From NCBI RefSeq assembly GCF_947501405.1, contig NZ_CANMVK010000002.1:434001-498000 (forward strand): a stretch of 64,000 nucleotides of DNA, given 5' to 3'. Below the pieces are notes generated by a model. That model saw nothing but the letters and a program-made list of their open reading frames with translations. It was not told the origin of the DNA and did no database searches. Positions 11,768 to 51,873 of this stretch are shown piece by piece (position 1 is the first letter of the stretch; each line of letters starts with the position of its first letter). Made by a program: the position numbers and the translations under genes. Origin of the DNA: an uncultured Hoeflea sp. (GTDB lineage: Bacteria > Pseudomonadota > Alphaproteobacteria > Rhizobiales > Rhizobiaceae).

Positions 11768-12820
11768 ATGAATTTTGCCTGTAGACTGCTGCTCCTCGCG
11801 TCACTCGCGGCGCCATTGACAAGCCCGGCGATTGCACAGGATGAGCCTCTAAGGGTGGCGAAACTGATGACCGTTGGCAGCGAAACCGGAGGCGTGACAC
11901 GTCAGTTCTTCGGTCAGATTGTTGCACGGCAAACAGTCGATCTGGCGTTTCAGGTGGCCGGACAGATCGTCAAGTTACCGGCCGATGAGGGCGCCGAGAT
12001 CAAGCAGGGATCACTGATCGCGCAGCTCGATCTGGAGCCGTTCGAGCTGCAACTTCAGCAAGCCCAATTGCAGGCCGGCCAGGCAGAACGCGCGCTCGAT
12101 CGCCTGACCCAGTTGACCCTTTCAGCTTCGGCATCCGAGGCTTCGCGCGAAGATGCCCAGACCAGCTTCTCACTTGCCGAGGTCGCGGTGCGCAATGCCG
12201 AGGTGGCACTGGAAAACGCAACGCTGGTGGCGCCCTTCGACGCCTTGGTTGCCAGCCGAAATGTTGCGAATTTCACCACCATCAGCGCCGGCACGCCGGT
12301 GGTGCGCCTGCACGACATGTCCGAATTGCGCATTGAAATTGATGTCCCGGAGGTGCTGTTTCAGCGCGCCGGCGAGGACAGCAAGGTGGAACTCTCCGCG
12401 CGCTTTCCCACAGGAGAGCAAACCTACCCGCTTGAAATCCGCGAGTTCAATGCCGAAGCCTCGACGGTCGGCCAGACCTATCGCCTCACGCTGGGCATGG
12501 AGCGCCTGCCGGGCGTGGTGGCGTTGCCAGGCAGCACCGTAACCGTGCTCGCCACCATCGGCGCGGGCCAGCCACAGCTCGTCGTCCCGGCCACAGCCGT
12601 TCGCATTGCCAATGACGGGGCGACAAGTGTTTTGGTCTTTAACCCCGCCGATAATGGCGCCGGCGTTCTCAAAGAGGTCGGCATCGATCTTGAGTCGACA
12701 CGCGACGGCCAGTTCAGGGTGATCTCCGGTATCGAGAATGGAACCGAGATCGTCCGCATCGGTGCCCAAGCCCTTACGGACGGGCAAACGGTCAGACGCT
12801 TTAACGGCTTCTCGAACTGA
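11768..12820 (+). CDS. RND efflux membrane-fusion (periplasmic adaptor) protein
   Basis: A 350-residue HlyD/AcrA-type adaptor. A signal peptide (MNFACRLLLLASLAAPLTSPAIAQ) is followed by the first lipoyl half VDLAFQVAGQIVKLPADEGAEIKQGSLIAQLD, a coiled-coil hairpin (about residues 95-145), the second lipoyl half ATLVAPFDALVASRNV, and beta-barrel and membrane-proximal domains. It has no lipobox cysteine, so it is presumably held by the transporter. It precedes the RND gene by 16 bases. No outer-membrane factor gene is adjacent. The substrate is unknown. Confidence 0.87.
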   Translation: MNFACRLLLLASLAAPLTSPAIAQDEPLRVAKLMTVGSETGGVTRQFFGQIVARQTVDLAFQVAGQIVKLPADEGAEIKQGSLIAQLDLEPFELQLQQAQLQAGQAERALDRLTQLTLSASASEASREDAQTSFSLAEVAVRNAEVALENATLVAPFDALVASRNVANFTTISAGTPVVRLHDMSELRIEIDVPEVLFQRAGEDSKVELSARFPTGEQTYPLEIREFNAEASTVGQTYRLTLGMERLPGVVALPGSTVTVLATIGAGQPQLVVPATAVRIANDGATSVLVFNPADNGAGVLKEVGIDLESTRDGQFRVISGIENGTEIVRIGAQALTDGQTVRRFNGFSN

Positions 12821-12836
12821 TCTCCGGGGCACGGCC

Positions 12837-15800
12837 ATGAACATCGCGCGCGCTTCCATCGACAAGCCAATCCTGATCTGGCTGATTATGCTGGCCTGTC
12901 TATTCGGCGGCATCTGGGGCTTTTCCGCCCTGGGCCGTCTCGAGGACCCGGCCTTCACCATCAAGCAAGCTGTGGTGATCACACAATATCCGGGCGCTTC
13001 GGCCAAGCAGGTTGCCAACGAAGTCACCGAGCCGCTGGAATCCGCGATCCAGCGCATGGGTGAGGTCAAGGAGATTATCTCGGTCAACCGTCCGGGCGTG
13101 TCGCGCATCGACGTTCTGGTTGACGACACCATCAGGGGTGACGAATTGCCCGATGTGTGGACCGAACTGCGCCAGAGACTGGAAACCGCGCAGTCGCGGC
13201 TTCCAACCGAAGCCAACGCCCCGATCGTCGACGATGGTTTCGGCGATGTCTACGGGATTTTCTTCGCGGTGACCTCGAACGGCTTTACCGATGCCGAGAA
13301 ACATCAGCTGGCAACCTTCCTGCGCCGCGAATTGCTGACGGTCGACGGTGTTGCGGATGTCGAAGTGTCGGGACTGCCCGAAGAGACGATCTTCGTCGAA
13401 CCCAACCTTGCCATCTCTTCGCAACTTGGGATCAATCCGCAAATCCTCATTGAGGCGCTGGCGACTTCTAATTCGGTTCAGCCGGCGGGCTCGCTGACCG
13501 GGAGTGAAGAGCGCGTTCCCATTCAGGCACCTGAAGGCTCCGACAGCGTCAGCGAGATAGCCGCGCTCACGGTGGGGGTTGGCGGGGACCTGATCAATCT
13601 GGTTGATTTCGCGCAAGTCAACCGCGACCGGGCGGAAAACCCGGCCACCATCATCCGCTTTGAAGGTCAGGAAGCCTTCACACTCGGAATTGCCGGATTG
13701 AGTGACGAGAACATTGTCGATGTCGGCAACCATGTGGATGCGCATCTGCAGTCCCTGTTGCCCGAGATTCCCTATGGCGTGGAACTGCACCCGATCTACC
13801 AGCAACATGTGGTGGTGGATGAATCCTCCAGCGGCTTTCTCGTCAATCTTGCCATGTCGGTCGCCATTGTTGTGCTGGTGCTCGGGCTCTTCATGGGCCC
13901 GCGTGCGGCCGTCGTGGTCGGCGCAACCCTGTTGCTGACCGTCGTGGGCACACTGTTGTTCATGGCGATATTTTCCATCGAAATGGAACGGATTTCGCTT
14001 GGGGCGCTGATCATCGCAATGGGCATGCTGGTCGATAATGCCATTGTCGTCGCCGAAGGCATGCAGATTTCCATGAGCCGAGGCAAATCCTCGCGCGATG
14101 CGGCCGATGAAGCGGCCGGAAAAACCCAGATACCGCTGCTTGGCGCGACTGTGATCGGCATCATGGCCTTTGCCGGTATCGGGCTCAGTCCGGATTCGAC
14201 GGGCGAGTTCATGTTCTCGCTGTTTGCCGTGATCTGCATCTCGCTGCTTTTGTCGTGGGTGCTTGCCGTCACGGTCACGCCACTGCTCGGGCATTATGTT
14301 TTCAAACGTGGTGAGGGCACGGGCGGTGATGCCTATGGCGGATTGGTGTTTCGCGCCTATGGCGGGTTGCTGCGCGGCGCTTTGCGGTTTCGCTGGCTGG
14401 TGCTTGTCGGTTTGGTGGCCGTCACCGCGTTGAGCTATGTGGGCTTTGGTCAGGTCAAACAGCAGTTTTTCCCCAACTCCAACACACCCCTGTTCTTCGC
14501 GCACTACACGATGCAGCAGGGCACGCCGATCTCAAAAACTGCGGAACAGATGCGCGTGCTCGAGGCTTATCTGGCCGAGCGCGAAGATGTGCTGTCGGTT
14601 TCCACCTTTGTGGGCGAGGGCGCGACCCGCTTCCTGCTGACCTATAGCTCGGAGCCGCCCAATGCGGCCTATGGCCATTTGATAATCCGGACCGCGGATC
14701 TCACGCTGATCCCGGCGATTCAGGCCGATCTCGAGGCCTTTGCGGCCGAGAACCTGCCGGAAGGCGAGTTCAGAACGGAGCGGCTGGTCTTCGGCCCGGG
14801 TGGCGGCAGCCCCATCGAGGTTCGCTTTTCCGGCCGTGATGCCACGGTGTTGCGCGATCTGGCCGATCAGGCGATCACCGTGATGGAGCAGGCGTCCCCG
14901 AACATTCTGGCGCCGCGCAACGACTGGCGCGAGAAGCAGCTGGTCTTGCGCCCGCAATACGTGACCGACCGGGCGCAGGCCGCCGGCATTACGCGCGACA
15001 ATGTGGCCCAGGTGCTGGCCTTTGCCACCGACGGCATTACCGCCGGTGTCTATCGCGAGGGTGACCGATCGATCCCGATCGTGCTGCGCAACGCGCCATC
15101 GTCCGATGTCGGTGTTCTGGATCAGGCGCTGATTTCCCAGGATGGCGAAACGCTTCTGCCGATCGAGCAGATCGTCGACGGCTTCACCGCCGAAGCCCAG
15201 GACACGATCATCTACCGGCGCGACCGCGTTGAGACCATCACCGTGGGTGCAAGCATTCCCCCCGACATGACCGCCCCTCAGGTTCATGCCGAAATTCGCG
15301 CTGCGGTCGAGGCGATCCCGGTGCCGCCGGGCTACAAGATGGAATGGGGCGGCGAGTTCGAATCATCCGCCGAGGCCAATGCCAGCCTGGGCGCGCAGCT
15401 CCCCGTCACCATTTTGATCATGATCGTGATCACGGTGGTGCTGTTTAATGCCCTCAGGCAGCCGCTCATCATCTGGTTGCTGGTGCCCATGTCGGTCAAC
15501 GGCGCGGCGCTCGGCCTTCTGGGCACAGGCCTTCCCTTCACCTTTACTGCCTTGCTGGGGCTTCTGAGCCTTTCAGGCATGCTGATCAAGAACGGCATCG
15601 TGCTGGTTGAGGAAATCGACATCGAACGCAGCGCGGGCGGGTCGCTTCGCGACAACATCGTTACCGCTTCGGTCTCGCGTTTAAGGCCGGTACTGCTGGC
15701 TGCCGGAACGACGATCCTGGGGATGATCCCGCTTCTGGGCGATGCGTTCTTTGTCTCCATGGCGGTGACCATCATGGGCGGCCTGGCCTTTGCCTCGATC

Positions 15801-15878
15801 CTCACTTTGGTGGCTGCACCTGTGCTCTATGATGTGTTCTTCATGCCACGCGTAAAAGGCCAGGCGTCACAGAGCTGA
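12837..15878 (+). CDS. RND multidrug efflux transporter (AcrB-like)
   Basis: A 1013-residue RND pump of the hydrophobe/amphiphile efflux class. The start MNIARASIDKPILIWLIMLACL follows the adaptor stop by 16 bases. It shows the first membrane helix, a large porter domain (QYPGASAKQVANEVTEPLE), a second helix bundle starting GFLVNLAMSVAIVVLVLG, and the duplicated second half. In helix 4 the proton-relay site reads GMLVDNAIVVAEG: the first Asp is kept but the second, Asp in AcrB, is Asn. It works with the preceding adaptor at the inner membrane. No regulator is adjacent; the MarR gene downstream is convergent. Confidence 0.9.
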   Translation: MNIARASIDKPILIWLIMLACLFGGIWGFSALGRLEDPAFTIKQAVVITQYPGASAKQVANEVTEPLESAIQRMGEVKEIISVNRPGVSRIDVLVDDTIRGDELPDVWTELRQRLETAQSRLPTEANAPIVDDGFGDVYGIFFAVTSNGFTDAEKHQLATFLRRELLTVDGVADVEVSGLPEETIFVEPNLAISSQLGINPQILIEALATSNSVQPAGSLTGSEERVPIQAPEGSDSVSEIAALTVGVGGDLINLVDFAQVNRDRAENPATIIRFEGQEAFTLGIAGLSDENIVDVGNHVDAHLQSLLPEIPYGVELHPIYQQHVVVDESSSGFLVNLAMSVAIVVLVLGLFMGPRAAVVVGATLLLTVVGTLLFMAIFSIEMERISLGALIIAMGMLVDNAIVVAEGMQISMSRGKSSRDAADEAAGKTQIPLLGATVIGIMAFAGIGLSPDSTGEFMFSLFAVICISLLLSWVLAVTVTPLLGHYVFKRGEGTGGDAYGGLVFRAYGGLLRGALRFRWLVLVGLVAVTALSYVGFGQVKQQFFPNSNTPLFFAHYTMQQGTPISKTAEQMRVLEAYLAEREDVLSVSTFVGEGATRFLLTYSSEPPNAAYGHLIIRTADLTLIPAIQADLEAFAAENLPEGEFRTERLVFGPGGGSPIEVRFSGRDATVLRDLADQAITVMEQASPNILAPRNDWREKQLVLRPQYVTDRAQAAGITRDNVAQVLAFATDGITAGVYREGDRSIPIVLRNAPSSDVGVLDQALISQDGETLLPIEQIVDGFTAEAQDTIIYRRDRVETITVGASIPPDMTAPQVHAEIRAAVEAIPVPPGYKMEWGGEFESSAEANASLGAQLPVTILIMIVITVVLFNALRQPLIIWLLVPMSVNGAALGLLGTGLPFTFTALLGLLSLSGMLIKNGIVLVEEIDIERSAGGSLRDNIVTASVSRLRPVLLAAGTTILGMIPLLGDAFFVSMAVTIMGGLAFASILTLVAAPVLYDVFFMPRVKGQASQS

Positions 15879-15970: not shown

Positions 15971-16477
15971 TCAGGATTTCGCCAACTCGTCTGCCGGAAT
16001 CGGGCAGTCGCTGCAGATGCGATCATCGCACAGGCGGCAGAGCGTACGGCGCTCGGTATCCGTGGTTTCCATTGAAGCCAGCATCTTGTGCAGGAGCGCT
16101 GCAAGTTGCGCTTCCTCCGGGCTGCTGAGCGGCGCCAACAGCGGCCGGATGGCAGCAAGTCGCCCTTTCAGGAGGTCCTGGCGAACAGCGCGGCCGCGAT
16201 CGCTGAGATAGAGCGCGATCGCCCGCCTGTCGCGCCCCGCGCGACGCTCGACAAGGCCATCGGCGACAAGCCGGTCGACAAGCCGCACCGTTCCCGGATG
16301 CGACAAACCCAGCACGCGCCGCAGTTGATCGTTGGACGGGCCAGTGCCGTGTCCGATGACGACCAGTGCCGCCGGCGTCTCCCCCGCATGGCTGAGAATG
16401 TCGCGCGCCGTGTCTTCAATGCGACCGGCGACGGCAAGCCCGATGACACCGAGTAGATTTGCAGTACGATCAATCAT
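15971..16477 (-). CDS. MarR-family transcriptional regulator with four-Cys C-terminal tail
   Basis: A 168-residue winged-helix regulator. The central DNA-binding part NDQLRRVLGLSHPGTVRLVDRLVADGLVERR (about residues 49-80) and the wing GRDRRAIALYLSDRGR are standard MarR features. The C-terminus is unusual: CRLCDDRICSDCP (residues 147-159) has a CxxC-x4-CxxC arrangement suited to zinc, an Fe-S cluster or thiol switching. The ATG lies 7 bases after an apparent -10 box, so the mRNA may be leaderless. Its own promoter carries a palindrome that recurs in front of the GNAT gene, suggesting autoregulation and control of that gene. Confidence 0.85.
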   Translation of the reverse strand: MIDRTANLLGVIGLAVAGRIEDTARDILSHAGETPAALVVIGHGTGPSNDQLRRVLGLSHPGTVRLVDRLVADGLVERRAGRDRRAIALYLSDRGRAVRQDLLKGRLAAIRPLLAPLSSPEEAQLAALLHKMLASMETTDTERRTLCRLCDDRICSDCPIPADELAKS

Positions 16478-16484
16478 GGCCCCA

Positions 16485-16513
16485 TTGATATGTGCGCCGC
16501 GCACGATTATCAA
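16485..16513 (-). promoter_or_regulatory. MarR-gene promoter with embedded palindromic operator
   Basis: Reading the minus strand, -35 TTGATA (16513-16508) and -10 TATCAA (16490-16485) are 17 bases apart. The spacer holds the near-palindrome TGTGCGC-C-GCGCACG (plus strand 16491-16505). The start codon begins 7 bases after the -10, where transcription would start. A repressor bound here would block RNA polymerase directly. Confidence 0.68.
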
Positions 16514-16514
16514 C

Positions 16515-16545
16515 TTGACAATATGTGCGCAGCGCACAGGATCAA
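16515..16545. promoter_or_regulatory. Second copy of the MarR-type operator
   Basis: A perfect palindrome TGTGCGC-A-GCGCACA (16524-16538), one base from a plus-strand TTGACA at 16515-16520. A matching plus-strand -10 is weak (GGATCA), so it may be either a second regulator site upstream of the MarR gene or part of a rightward promoter for the alkyltransferase gene. Confidence 0.6.
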
Positions 16546-16771
16546 TTCGTTCCTGCGCGTCCGTCCGCAAAAGCGCAATACGCTTTACAAGGCGGCCTTG
16601 GCCACGGATGGTTTGAGAATATAGAACCGGGGCGGAGTGTGGTGAGAATGACGAGACTGCATCTTTCATCGAGCACGGTGTCTGCCACATCGAAGCCGAT
16701 CGCGGGTGAACAGATGGACCAATTGTCGGGCAAGGAGGGTAGGGGACGAGACCTCTATTCGGCGTGCGCCC

Positions 16772-17350
16772 GTGGTTGAGGCTTCGCCCACGGTGCATTT
16801 CTCTCTGTTTCCGACCCCGCTCGGCGACTGCGGTATTGCCTGGTGCGGTGATATGGTGGTCGCAACCCGCCTTCCCGATCAAAGCTCCGCCGAGACCAGC
16901 CGCAAACTGGCTGCGCGGACGGGCGGGGCGAGGGGCGAGCCGCCTCCCTCCATCCAGCGCGCGATTGAGGCGATGACCGCGCTGCTCGAGGGCGAACCGA
17001 CCGATCTCACCTTCATCGCCTGCGATTTCGGCGGGGCCGAGCCATTTGCCGTTGAGGTCTATGCTGCAACGCGCGCCATCCCGGCCGGCGAGACATCGAC
17101 CTATGGCGCCATCGCATCGCAACTGGGTGACAAGCAGCTTTCCCGCAGTGTCGGGCAGGCTCTCGGCCGCAATCCGGTGCCGATCATCGTGCCGTGCCAT
17201 CGTGTTATCGGCGCGGGCGGTAAACTCACCGGCTTTTCAGCGGCTGGCGGCGTCGCCACGAAGCTCAGAATGCTGGCGATCGAAGGCGCCCAGATAGGCG
17301 AGGCGCCCGGACTGTTTGGTGATCTCCCGCTTGCCACGAAACCGCAATAA
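16772..17350 (+). CDS. ogt: Methylated-DNA-protein-cysteine methyltransferase
   Basis: A suicide DNA-repair enzyme that moves the methyl group from O6-methylguanine (or O4-methylthymine) to its own cysteine. The active site is IIVPCHRVIGAGGKLTGFS and the helix-turn-helix region is TSTYGAIASQLGDKQLSRSVGQALGRNP, both standard. The start is unresolved: GTG here gives 192 residues, the usual size, and another GTG 66 bases upstream is in frame. A strong AAGGAGGG at 16732-16739 has no ATG, GTG or TTG at proper spacing. The gene is divergent from the MarR regulator, with two operator copies between them. Confidence 0.9.
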   Translation: MVEASPTVHFSLFPTPLGDCGIAWCGDMVVATRLPDQSSAETSRKLAARTGGARGEPPPSIQRAIEAMTALLEGEPTDLTFIACDFGGAEPFAVEVYAATRAIPAGETSTYGAIASQLGDKQLSRSVGQALGRNPVPIIVPCHRVIGAGGKLTGFSAAGGVATKLRMLAIEGAQIGEAPGLFGDLPLATKPQ

Positions 17351-17483
17351 TGACACGCCGCGATCTCCGCCCGCGTGTGACTTCACGCCGGAAGGCTCCG
17401 CCTTGCGGCAATGCCCCATTGGCCGCGGTCTGGAAGATGGGAGAGGGGCAAGAGCACTGACCGAAAGGCCAGACCGTGGACTG

Positions 17484-18065
17484 CTAGACCGTGAGAGTCA
17501 CCACCCATTTGTGCTTGCCGATCTTTCGCGCGCGCTCAAATCCAAGGCGCTCGAAGGTCGAGAGCGCTCCGTTGAACAAAAACGCCGGCGATGCCTTCCG
17601 CCCCTCAATGTCTTCCGGATAGCCTTCGATGCGCCCGCCGCCCAGTGACCTGATCTGCCTGATCGCACCTTCAAGTGCTGCGGACGCCACTCCGGCGCCA
17701 CGGTGGCCCTTGCCGGAAAACATGCAGGTGATCCGCCAGTCGGGCAGCATTGGATCGGTGGATCGGTAGGCGCGCTGATTGTGGATTCGCGGAAGCTCGT
17801 CAGGCGAGCCGAACTGGCACCAGCCGACACAGTCCGGACCATGGAAGACCAGCGCGGCATGGGCTCGTCCTTCCCGAACGCGGCACTCCTTGGCCTCGCG
17901 TTTCGCCGCCGGGGAACCGTCCGAGCCGTCGTCCTCGCCGTGATACCACATACACCAGCAGCCGCCCCAAACACCGTTGTTCGCCTCGGCCAGACGCGCA
18001 AAGTCCGGCCAGGTGTCGGCATCAAGTGCTCTGGTTTCATACTCTGTCACGGCATTCCTGGGCAT
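17484..18065 (-). CDS. GNAT family N-acetyltransferase
   Basis: A 193-residue protein. The acetyl-CoA-binding motif A is seen as CMFSGKGHRGAGVASAALEGAI near residues 118-139. The N-terminal NNGVWGGCWCMWYHGEDDG segment is a conserved mark of one GNAT subgroup whose substrate I do not know. The ATG at 18065 is chosen because it lies 5 bases after a good -10 box; the longer frame upstream would translate through the operator palindrome itself. It is probably repressed by the nearby MarR protein, and could modify a toxic compound or a peptide. That role is inference. Confidence 0.82.
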   Translation of the reverse strand: MPRNAVTEYETRALDADTWPDFARLAEANNGVWGGCWCMWYHGEDDGSDGSPAAKREAKECRVREGRAHAALVFHGPDCVGWCQFGSPDELPRIHNQRAYRSTDPMLPDWRITCMFSGKGHRGAGVASAALEGAIRQIRSLGGGRIEGYPEDIEGRKASPAFLFNGALSTFERLGFERARKIGKHKWVVTLTV

Positions 18066-18070
18066 CCGGA

Positions 18071-18100
18071 AAGATATGTGCGCTACGCACATATCGTCAA
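18071..18100 (-). promoter_or_regulatory. GNAT-gene promoter with perfect palindromic operator
   Basis: On the minus strand, -35 TTGACG (18100-18095) and -10 TATCTT (18076-18071) are 18 bases apart. The region 18073-18095 is a perfect inverted repeat with 10-bp arms (GATATGTGCG / CGCACATATC) around CTA. It shares the TGTGCG...CGCACA core with the two sites at the MarR gene. The ATG falls at the expected transcription start, so the mRNA looks leaderless. Confidence 0.75.
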
Positions 18101-18592
18101 GCGAAAAAGTCGCGCCGGCCATCTGTGGCGATGGCTGTGCCGTCTTTGGGATGTCCTTGAATGCGAGTCTTGAACGGGAGGAAACGCCATGCGGCGTTCG
18201 TAGCGTGCTTCTTGGAAGCTGGCGTTCAGTCATTCCGCAACATTCGTCGAACTCGGCTCCGGGCTGGTCTGCGGAAGAGCGCTTTTTTACTCTAACGCTG
18301 CTCCGAAATCCGGCCTGGCTTTGACAGTTTTGCTTCTTGCGACCGCAACAAAATCACGCGTCGCTGCCATTGCGGATCATCCATTTTCAATGCCCTTGCG
18401 CTTCGCGAGTCGCCCCTCCATGGTTAACGAAACCTCACCGGGAAAGTTAACCACAGCCTTTGAAGTCTTAGTGATCGGTTAAATTTGAGCGGTGCTGGTA
18501 AGGTCTCGGTAACAGTTTTGACGCTTTAATCGCCTCAACCAAGGGGCAGTTCCGCTCCCGCCGGTATTGGTCAGCACAGATGCAGATTTGAA
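18101..18592. other. Gene-free region between GNAT and cbrA-like genes
   Basis: About 490 bases with no convincing protein frame. The stretch 18420-18590 is less GC-rich than its surroundings and leads on the plus strand straight into a strong terminator although no plus-strand gene lies upstream. It could encode a small RNA. A TTGACA at 18321-18326 has only a weak -10 partner. Confidence 0.35.
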
Positions 18593-18623
18593 AAGGGGAC
18601 CGGCAGCGGTCCCCTTCTTTTTT
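18593..18623 (+). terminator. Bidirectional Rho-independent terminator
   Basis: Stem AAGGGGACCG / CGGTCCCCTT (10 bp) with loop GCAG, followed on the plus strand by C and six T residues. On the minus strand the stem is followed by two more T, making TTTT, and lies 46 bases after the stop of the CbrA-like kinase gene. It can serve that gene, but the better T run faces the gene-free plus strand. Confidence 0.8.
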
Positions 18624-18668
18624 GGTGCCGGCGGCGACGCGGTTCAGTCAGCCGGCAAGCTCTGCCCT

Positions 18669-51502: not shown

Positions 51503-51660
51503 CAGCCCCCTCTGTCCTTTCGCCTGAGATTGTTATCCCTTCGGCGGGCGCAAACCGCGCCACTCTCCAGAGTCCGTCCTATGCCGTTGGTCCTTTTGCC
51601 TGAGAGTTTCCGGGGCGGTTGCTCCTTCGGCACCGGATAAACCGGTTTCTCCCAACGGGA
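51503..51660 (-). promoter_or_regulatory. Tandem glycine riboswitch
   Basis: On the minus strand two glycine aptamers follow each other. The first has GCCGAAGGAGCAA (51631-51619) and CTCAGGCAAAAGGAC (51604-51590). The second has GCCGAAGGGATAACA (51545-51531) and CTCAGGCGAAAGGACAGAG (51528-51510). These are the conserved glycine-aptamer cores, in the usual tandem arrangement. A short hairpin GGCGT / ACGCC (51483-51496) lies between aptamer 2 and the gcvT ribosome site and may be part of the switch. Glycine should turn the gcvTHP operon on. Confidence 0.95.
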
Positions 51661-51873
51661 CGAGGGTATTTAGGCTGAAACGCGGGAGGAAGGCAAGGGG
51701 GAGGTGGATTGTGCGCGCGGCCGGCAACAGGAAAGGTCCGCTGGTGATCACACCTCCCATTGAAGCTCCGGGTTTGTCCGGGTTGAAAGATGTGACGCGA
51801 CGGGAACCGGGTTGTTGCAAATGGCGGCAAGTGCGAACATGCCTTCATTGAAATCAAAGAGGACGACAGGCTT

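Follow-up and report, generated by a model that had tools for sequence, protein, structure and literature searches.

How can a repressor control genes whose promoters hold its candidate operators between the -35 and -10 elements and end almost at the start codon? The question is raised by a 64,000-nt stretch of DNA from an uncultured Hoeflea sp. (contig NZ_CANMVK010000002.1, positions 434,001-498,000 of the forward strand; hereafter the window), in which the genes for a MarR-family regulator, an O6-alkylguanine-DNA alkyltransferase and a GNAT-like acetyltransferase are accompanied by three copies of one palindrome (Table 1). The explanation that we regard as probable is a MarR self-repressor with a four-cysteine (Cys4) C-terminal tail, whose operators lie inside leaderless promoters of the regulator and GNAT genes and which represses by occlusion. 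The operators, their geometry, their conservation and the tail are apparent in the sequence, and they are presented below before the proposed mechanism.

Table 1. Coordinates of the regulator locus in the window (scores of operators are those of the operator matrix).
Feature	Position	Strand	Description
MarR-family regulator gene	15971..16477	-	168 amino acids; Pfam MarR_2 (PF12802) 36.3 bits, cut-off 27
Regulator promoter	16485..16513	-	-35 TTGATA 16513-16508, N17, -10 TATCAA 16490-16485, 7 nt, ATG 16477; predicted leaderless
Proximal operator core	16491..16505		One mismatch, inside regulator promoter spacer; score 26.3
Possible divergent promoter	16515..16544	+	-35 TTGACA 16515-16520, N18, decayed -10 GGATCA 16539-16544; by-eye comparison with 19 relatives
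Distal operator core	16524..16538		Exact; score 22.6
Ogt/MGMT-type O6-alkylguanine-DNA alkyltransferase gene	16793..17350	+	Likely start GTG 16793, open frame from 16706; PF01035 100.9 bits, cut-off 27
GNAT-like acetyltransferase gene	17484..18065	-	193 amino acids; close orthologues beside regulator in L032, L033, L054, G485
GNAT promoter	18071..18100	-	-35 TTGACG 18100-18095, N18, -10 TATCTT 18076-18071, 5 nt, ATG 18065; predicted leaderless
GNAT operator	18073..18095		Perfect 10+3+10 inverted repeat, core 18077-18091; top site of window, score 34.7

The palindromic core TGTGCG-N3-CGCACA is exact in the distal operator (TGTGCGCAGCGCACA) and in the GNAT operator (TGTGCGCTACGCACA). Of the three copies claimed by the initial annotation of this DNA, the third, in the proximal operator, reads TGTGCGCCGCGCACG and has one mismatch to the palindrome. 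The perfect repeat before the GNAT gene was confirmed from the sequence, and the promoter geometry, with a palindrome in the -35/-10 spacer of both minus-strand genes, is as the annotation stated. It had also proposed a scan of the genome with the 15-bp core, and would have taken many unrelated copies as evidence against its reading. In the 4,451,211 bases of the window's own genome, the exact core occurs at the two window places and nowhere else, with none for a reversed-pattern control; the chance expectation from base composition (62% GC) is about 0.5 genome-wide and 0.0002 per 1.6 kb. A 21-bp operator matrix, built from 45 sites upstream of 23 close relatives with the window kept out of training, retrieved exactly the three window sites from the 64 kb, all other positions scoring below 13. 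Applied to the genome's 12 remaining one-mismatch places, the matrix gave scores of 13.0 or less. Places with up to two mismatches numbered 241, compared to 165 for the reversed control, and further weak targets may be found among those with two mismatches. The shared operator is thus a real feature of the window and not a chance occurrence.

A scan of species genomes for regulator relatives yielded at least 51 loci (L numbers denote loci of regulator relatives or targets, and G numbers genomes in a class sample of 385 genomes, own included). Among the loci listed, the close set (at least 65% identity to the regulator) comprises 23 loci, L032-L054, with 65-83% identity and several members from metagenome bins; together with the window, L083 and L086, these provide 26 distinct close regulators. 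The remote set consists of 31 regulators, mostly of 34-50% identity (L027, L031, L084 and L085 were omitted as duplicates, and the weak partial matches L067-L082 were unused). For 25 of the 26 close regulators (the window's among them), the best -35/-10 pair is separated by 17 nt, with 6-7 nt left between the -10 and the ATG. This geometry appeared 0.8 times on average and three times at most in 200 rounds of shuffling, and never (0/26) in real DNA shifted by 100 nt. It recurs in 19/31 remote regulators, with five or fewer in shuffles and 4/31 in shifted DNA. A Shine-Dalgarno-like 4-mer precedes one close regulator of 26 and five remote ones of 31. In the window, the -10 to ATG distance falls within the 5-8 nt taken as the criterion for a leaderless repressor, and no Shine-Dalgarno sequence is present. 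The predicted leaderless geometry, with the ATG where transcription would be expected to begin, therefore survives comparison with relatives.

The operators are also constrained in position. A single-sequence palindrome score with 7-bp arms was dropped as too weak: at least six of seven positions were paired in 10/26 close and 15/31 remote regulators versus 8/130 and 8/155 control windows, and some of the best palindromes fell off the operator. Consensus matching, used instead, placed the proximal operator at -20/-21 from the ATG (centre) in 25/26 close regulators and the distal one at -52 to -55 in all 26. Remote operators mostly resemble TATGCG-N3-CGCATA; their sequence has changed, yet a site is mostly retained at the corresponding position ahead of the regulator. 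On the other strand, 16 of the 19 divergent genes counted (from 23 loci; L032, L035, L040 and L049 were left out) have a Shine-Dalgarno-like 4-mer before them. Assuming an 18-nt spacer, 17 of the 19 loci have 27-47 nt between the -10 end and the divergent ATG; the two alkyltransferase loci have 12 and 18 nt. Because of these Shine-Dalgarno counts and distances, in most relatives the regulator appears to be leaderless while the target transcribed the other way from the same intergenic region has a leader.

The GNAT gene would extend the regulon beyond the regulator itself. Five GNAT orthologues have their own operator (window, L032, L033, L054 and L106), and the promoter layout looked similar by eye in L032, L054 and L106. 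At twelve of twelve remote GNAT places, no operator was found (best score 1.9). GNAT matches at E <= 1e-20 occurred in 13/372 genomes, with a close orthologue in G000 and G485 only, both of which carry the regulator and have an operator at the GNAT start. In the metagenome-assembled L033 (2745-3349), the GNAT gene is split over two frames and has no ATG at the expected place, with the operator intact; the L051 locus is cut. In the class sample, a regulator relative at E <= 1e-25 was detected in 14/385 genomes and a close one in 5/385. The exact 19-bp operator, TATGTGCG-N3-CGCACATA, was likewise found in 5/385 genomes, four of which carry a close regulator (4/5 genomes with a close copy versus 1/380 without). 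The fifth, G499, has the exact site before a SnoaL-like gene and no regulator in the 3-kb locus; this gene may be an orphan target, or its regulator may lie elsewhere or be missing from the assembly. At this place (L102:1501-1957), the operator is located in a TTGACT-N18-TAAACT promoter. The small regulon of regulator and GNAT gene that had been predicted for the window holds up against these orthologue and co-occurrence data. The RND transporter gene at 12738-15878 was considered as a further member and rejected: no operator precedes it, and the relatives searched provided one remote match of 25% (L040).

From these data, we infer binding, occlusion, transcription start and signal as follows. 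A MarR-type dimer would bind sites like the 19-bp operator. The spacers of the regulator and GNAT promoters each contain one such site, and another, about 33 bp upstream of the one in the regulator promoter, covers the divergent promoter that faces it. Once bound, the repressor would obstruct RNA polymerase at each of the three promoters. Transcription of the regulator and GNAT genes would begin on the ATG or only a few bases away from it, giving messages with neither leader nor Shine-Dalgarno sequence. Such a start should keep the repressor scarce, while the divergent detoxification gene of most relatives would have a leader and a ribosome site. The repressor would probably be released when a thiol-reactive signal (an electrophile, an alkylator or an oxidant) acts on its tail.

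Other explanations were weighed against the same data. The operators could be real and transcription begin further upstream, or translation further downstream, leaving short leaders. Leaderless starts are predicted here from sequence, an in-frame GTG lies 15 nt past the GNAT ATG, and most divergent targets of these regions do have a Shine-Dalgarno sequence and room for a leader; however, the distance from the -10 to the homologous start codon stays at 6-7 nt in 25/26 close regulators, and as many lack a Shine-Dalgarno-like 4-mer, which makes short leaders unlikely. The palindromes might also be operators of another regulator, with the MarR gene merely one of its targets, since position in a promoter does not by itself identify the binding protein. 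That the exact site tracks the close regulator across the class sample, and that remote operators differ in sequence but mostly keep their place before the regulator, render this quite improbable. The palindromes might also be chance or terminator-like repeats, since inverted repeats are common and the genome has 241 places with up to two mismatches; yet the sites are kept at fixed places in relatives, amounting to a comparative footprint, and by eye no T-run follows the repeats on either strand, so that such an origin has next to no credibility.

Several observations nevertheless weigh against a self-repressor acting from leaderless promoters. Exact geometry is missing in 12/31 remote regulators, some with uncertain start codons; rows without it include L025, L028, L029, L065, L093-L095, L097 and L098, and some of the twelve probably have other promoter designs. 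The promoter finder optimises over positions and favours good-looking hexamers, for which the shuffles control in part. No proximal site was found at L040 by consensus matching. In L048 and L052, no separate operator precedes the GNAT gene, which comes after a SnoaL-like gene on the same strand. The GNAT-like protein itself scores 18 bits (E 0.0036) against Pfam Acetyltransf_1, under the cut-off of 20.7, and finally the regulator's tail is less surely predicted than the rest of the fold, with block values of the predicted local distance difference test (pLDDT) of 81, 68 and 43. For the GNAT-like protein, no PDB sequence match was obtained at E <= 0.1.

The regulator is predicted to adopt a MarR-like fold (mean pLDDT 86.4), and its top structure matches are MarR proteins; against PF01047 it scores 22.4 bits, under the cut-off of 24.6. 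Its sole cysteines form the C-terminal tail C147-x2-C150-x4-C155-x2-C158-P. These four and P159 are unchanged throughout an alignment of 29 chosen rows, and the motif, with 2-6 residues allowed before the last cysteine, is present in 24/24 close and 18/20 other rows, L030 and L031 failing (the count included L026/L027 and L030/L031, two pairs whose members are identical in the tree, and left out L083-L099). In G096 and G106, two remote relatives share a contig, with about 3 kb between them (L026/L030 and L027/L031); in each genome, one has the Cys4 tail and the other the first two cysteines only. The tail suggests a metal-bound thiol switch and is possibly the sensor of the regulator, which apparently belongs to an undescribed MarR subgroup; among the open-library literature matches listed, no description of a Cys4-tailed MarR subgroup was found. 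ArnR of Corynebacteria is reportedly a [4Fe-4S] regulator (PMC12343034). The tail can be likened to the alkylation sensor Ada. By this analogy, the metal-bound tail might itself be alkylated, or opened by oxidants, and so release the repressor, as an Ada-like device independently evolved on a MarR scaffold, an idea that we consider rather unlikely. If it were true, the regulator of some lineages would control the very alkyltransferase that repairs such DNA damage, plus electrophile-removing enzymes.

In the 23 close loci, the divergent gene is SnoaL-like in 15, VOC/glyoxalase-like in three, an alkyltransferase in two (L033 and L054), DUF3237 in two and PEP-mutase-like in one (one representative of each family, for the alkyltransferase that of the window, was Pfam-scanned and the rest assigned by similarity, L035 via its duplicate L084). 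In L045, L047 and L051, VOC, DUF3237, PEP-mutase-like, MFS and alkyltransferase genes occur in a row. Among remote relatives, a DUF417 gene is faced by L097 and L099 (annotated), L056 (Pfam) and L057, L058, L061 and L063 (by eye only), and in L098 such a gene is near the regulator relative without facing it. L087 faces a hydrolase gene whose product is best matched in the PDB by alpha/beta hydrolases and haloalkane dehalogenases, and L091 faces a similar one by eye; L090 faces a SnoaL-like gene, L088 and L089 face DUF3237 and VOC genes (by eye), and other remote relatives face unrelated or no clear genes. This mixture of alkyltransferase, SnoaL-like, VOC, DUF3237, PEP-mutase-like, MFS and GNAT genes, with DUF417 and haloalkane-dehalogenase-like ones in some remote relatives, is consistent with protection from reactive chemicals and offers a lead towards the inducer.

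The assignment of the window's alkyltransferase is clear (TIGR00589, 83 bits, cut-off 46.4, in addition to PF01035), the active-site motif PCHR is visible in the translation, and the match to L033 begins at residue 30 of the longer frame. The gene order GNAT - alkyltransferase - regulator is common to the window, L033 and L054. In L033 and L054, the alkyltransferase gene directly faces the upstream operator, its start lying 12 and 18 nt past the expected -10. In the window, the likely GTG start is about 250 bp from that operator. At the conserved position of the plus-strand -10, a TA start is seen by eye at a spacer of 18-20 in 18/19 relatives and GGATCA in the window, where a weaker alternative element, CAGGAT, is possible after a 16-nt spacer (by eye). 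The link to the operator thus appears clear in L033 and L054 and weakened in the window. The initial annotation had suggested control of this gene from the middle site; the facing genes of L033 and L054 speak for it, and because of the distant start and the decayed -10, such control is no more than plausible in the window, by descent. A remnant of a lost divergent gene was sought in 16540-16800, and comparison with the neighbour genes and DNA of the 23 relatives yielded nothing convincing.

Repressors that act on their own leaderless gene through an operator over its promoter are already known. The MarR-family OhrR of Chromobacterium violaceum is a redox repressor of its own gene, transcribed from TTGCAA-N17-TATTAT, and the mapped start is the A of the ATG; its footprint spans -10 and -35, the target gene is transcribed from a separate promoter and has a 36-nt leader, low translation was proposed for the leaderless ohrR message, and ohrR of X. 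campestris and S. coelicolor start likewise (PMC3469484). The window regulator resembles OhrR as a MarR-type repressor with predicted repression of its own gene and an N17 promoter ending near the ATG. OhrR differs in sensing via Cys21/Cys126 and in its operator sequence, the window protein having no cysteine outside the tail, and ohrA is downstream on the same strand, whereas the target of the window system is divergent or 1.6 kb away. Tested for the Cys21-type N-terminal sensing cysteine of the OhrR subfamily, the window protein lacked it and contained Cys147, 150, 155 and 158 only. The TetR-family AcuR of Rhodobacter sphaeroides is an alphaproteobacterial self-repressor whose message starts exactly at the AUG without a Shine-Dalgarno sequence; its operator repeat overlaps the promoter and was compared across fourteen sequences, the regulator is translated less than the downstream genes, and lambda cI and Tn1721 tetR are named as earlier leaderless cases (PMC3017554). 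The window system shares with AcuR the alphaproteobacterial setting and, by prediction, an operator repeat over the promoter of a leaderless regulator; AcuR differs by its family, a single operon with the regulator first and acrylate as inducer. HucR-type MarR proteins (PDB 8ylm, 7xl9) are among the structure matches of the window regulator and among its best sequence matches in solved structures, the latter covering residues 50-137 or 51-137 only, with the cysteine tail outside. Sinorhizobium meliloti SydR is a thiol-based, NaOCl-responsive MarR-type repressor (PMC11633110), alphaproteobacterial as well but without a four-cysteine tail; RcrR is another regulator among the literature matches listed. 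The MarR-type CrtR of C. glutamicum is reported leaderless (PMC5401885), and leaderless messages make up 7% in Methylorubrum extorquens (PMC9320726). New, as far as the open-library literature listed shows, are the Cys4-tailed subgroup, its nearly fixed leaderless geometry and the recurrence of the same operator at a separate, likewise leaderless target gene. These would define a sparse, widely scattered MarR subgroup by co-travelling traits, namely the Cys4 tail, an operator within the promoter spacer and a regulator message that is itself leaderless and usually faces a leadered target. After AcuR, this is a second, independent set of natural variants; the -10-to-ATG distance is nearly fixed while operator and targets change, and the idea that a leaderless start keeps the repressor scarce is therefore directly testable.

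The distribution of the regulator is patchy. In a family sample, it was matched at E <= 1e-15 in 6/151 genomes, with a close copy in the window's own genome only, and two sampled genomes of the same genus gave no match at this threshold. Its nearest named relatives are from Pelagibius (Rhodovibrionaceae) and Roseitalea (Ahrensiaceae); close regulators come from many families, tree support among them being weak and some bins possibly mislabelled. Horizontal transfer appears likely. Remote relatives occur in 165/72,556 plasmid records, of which the surroundings of three were inspected. On the conjugative IncU plasmid pFBAOT6 (L098), a remote relative (34%) is found near DUF417, YeeE/YedE, msrA and OsmC-type genes.

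Two further features were observed in the window. At 18592-18624, after a stretch without obvious gene from about 18460, a GC-rich hairpin is followed by a T-run (by eye) and could end a small RNA; this region had no Rfam match at gathering scores. On the minus strand, positions 51578-51664 correspond to a glycine riboswitch aptamer (Rfam RF00504, 66.9 bits).
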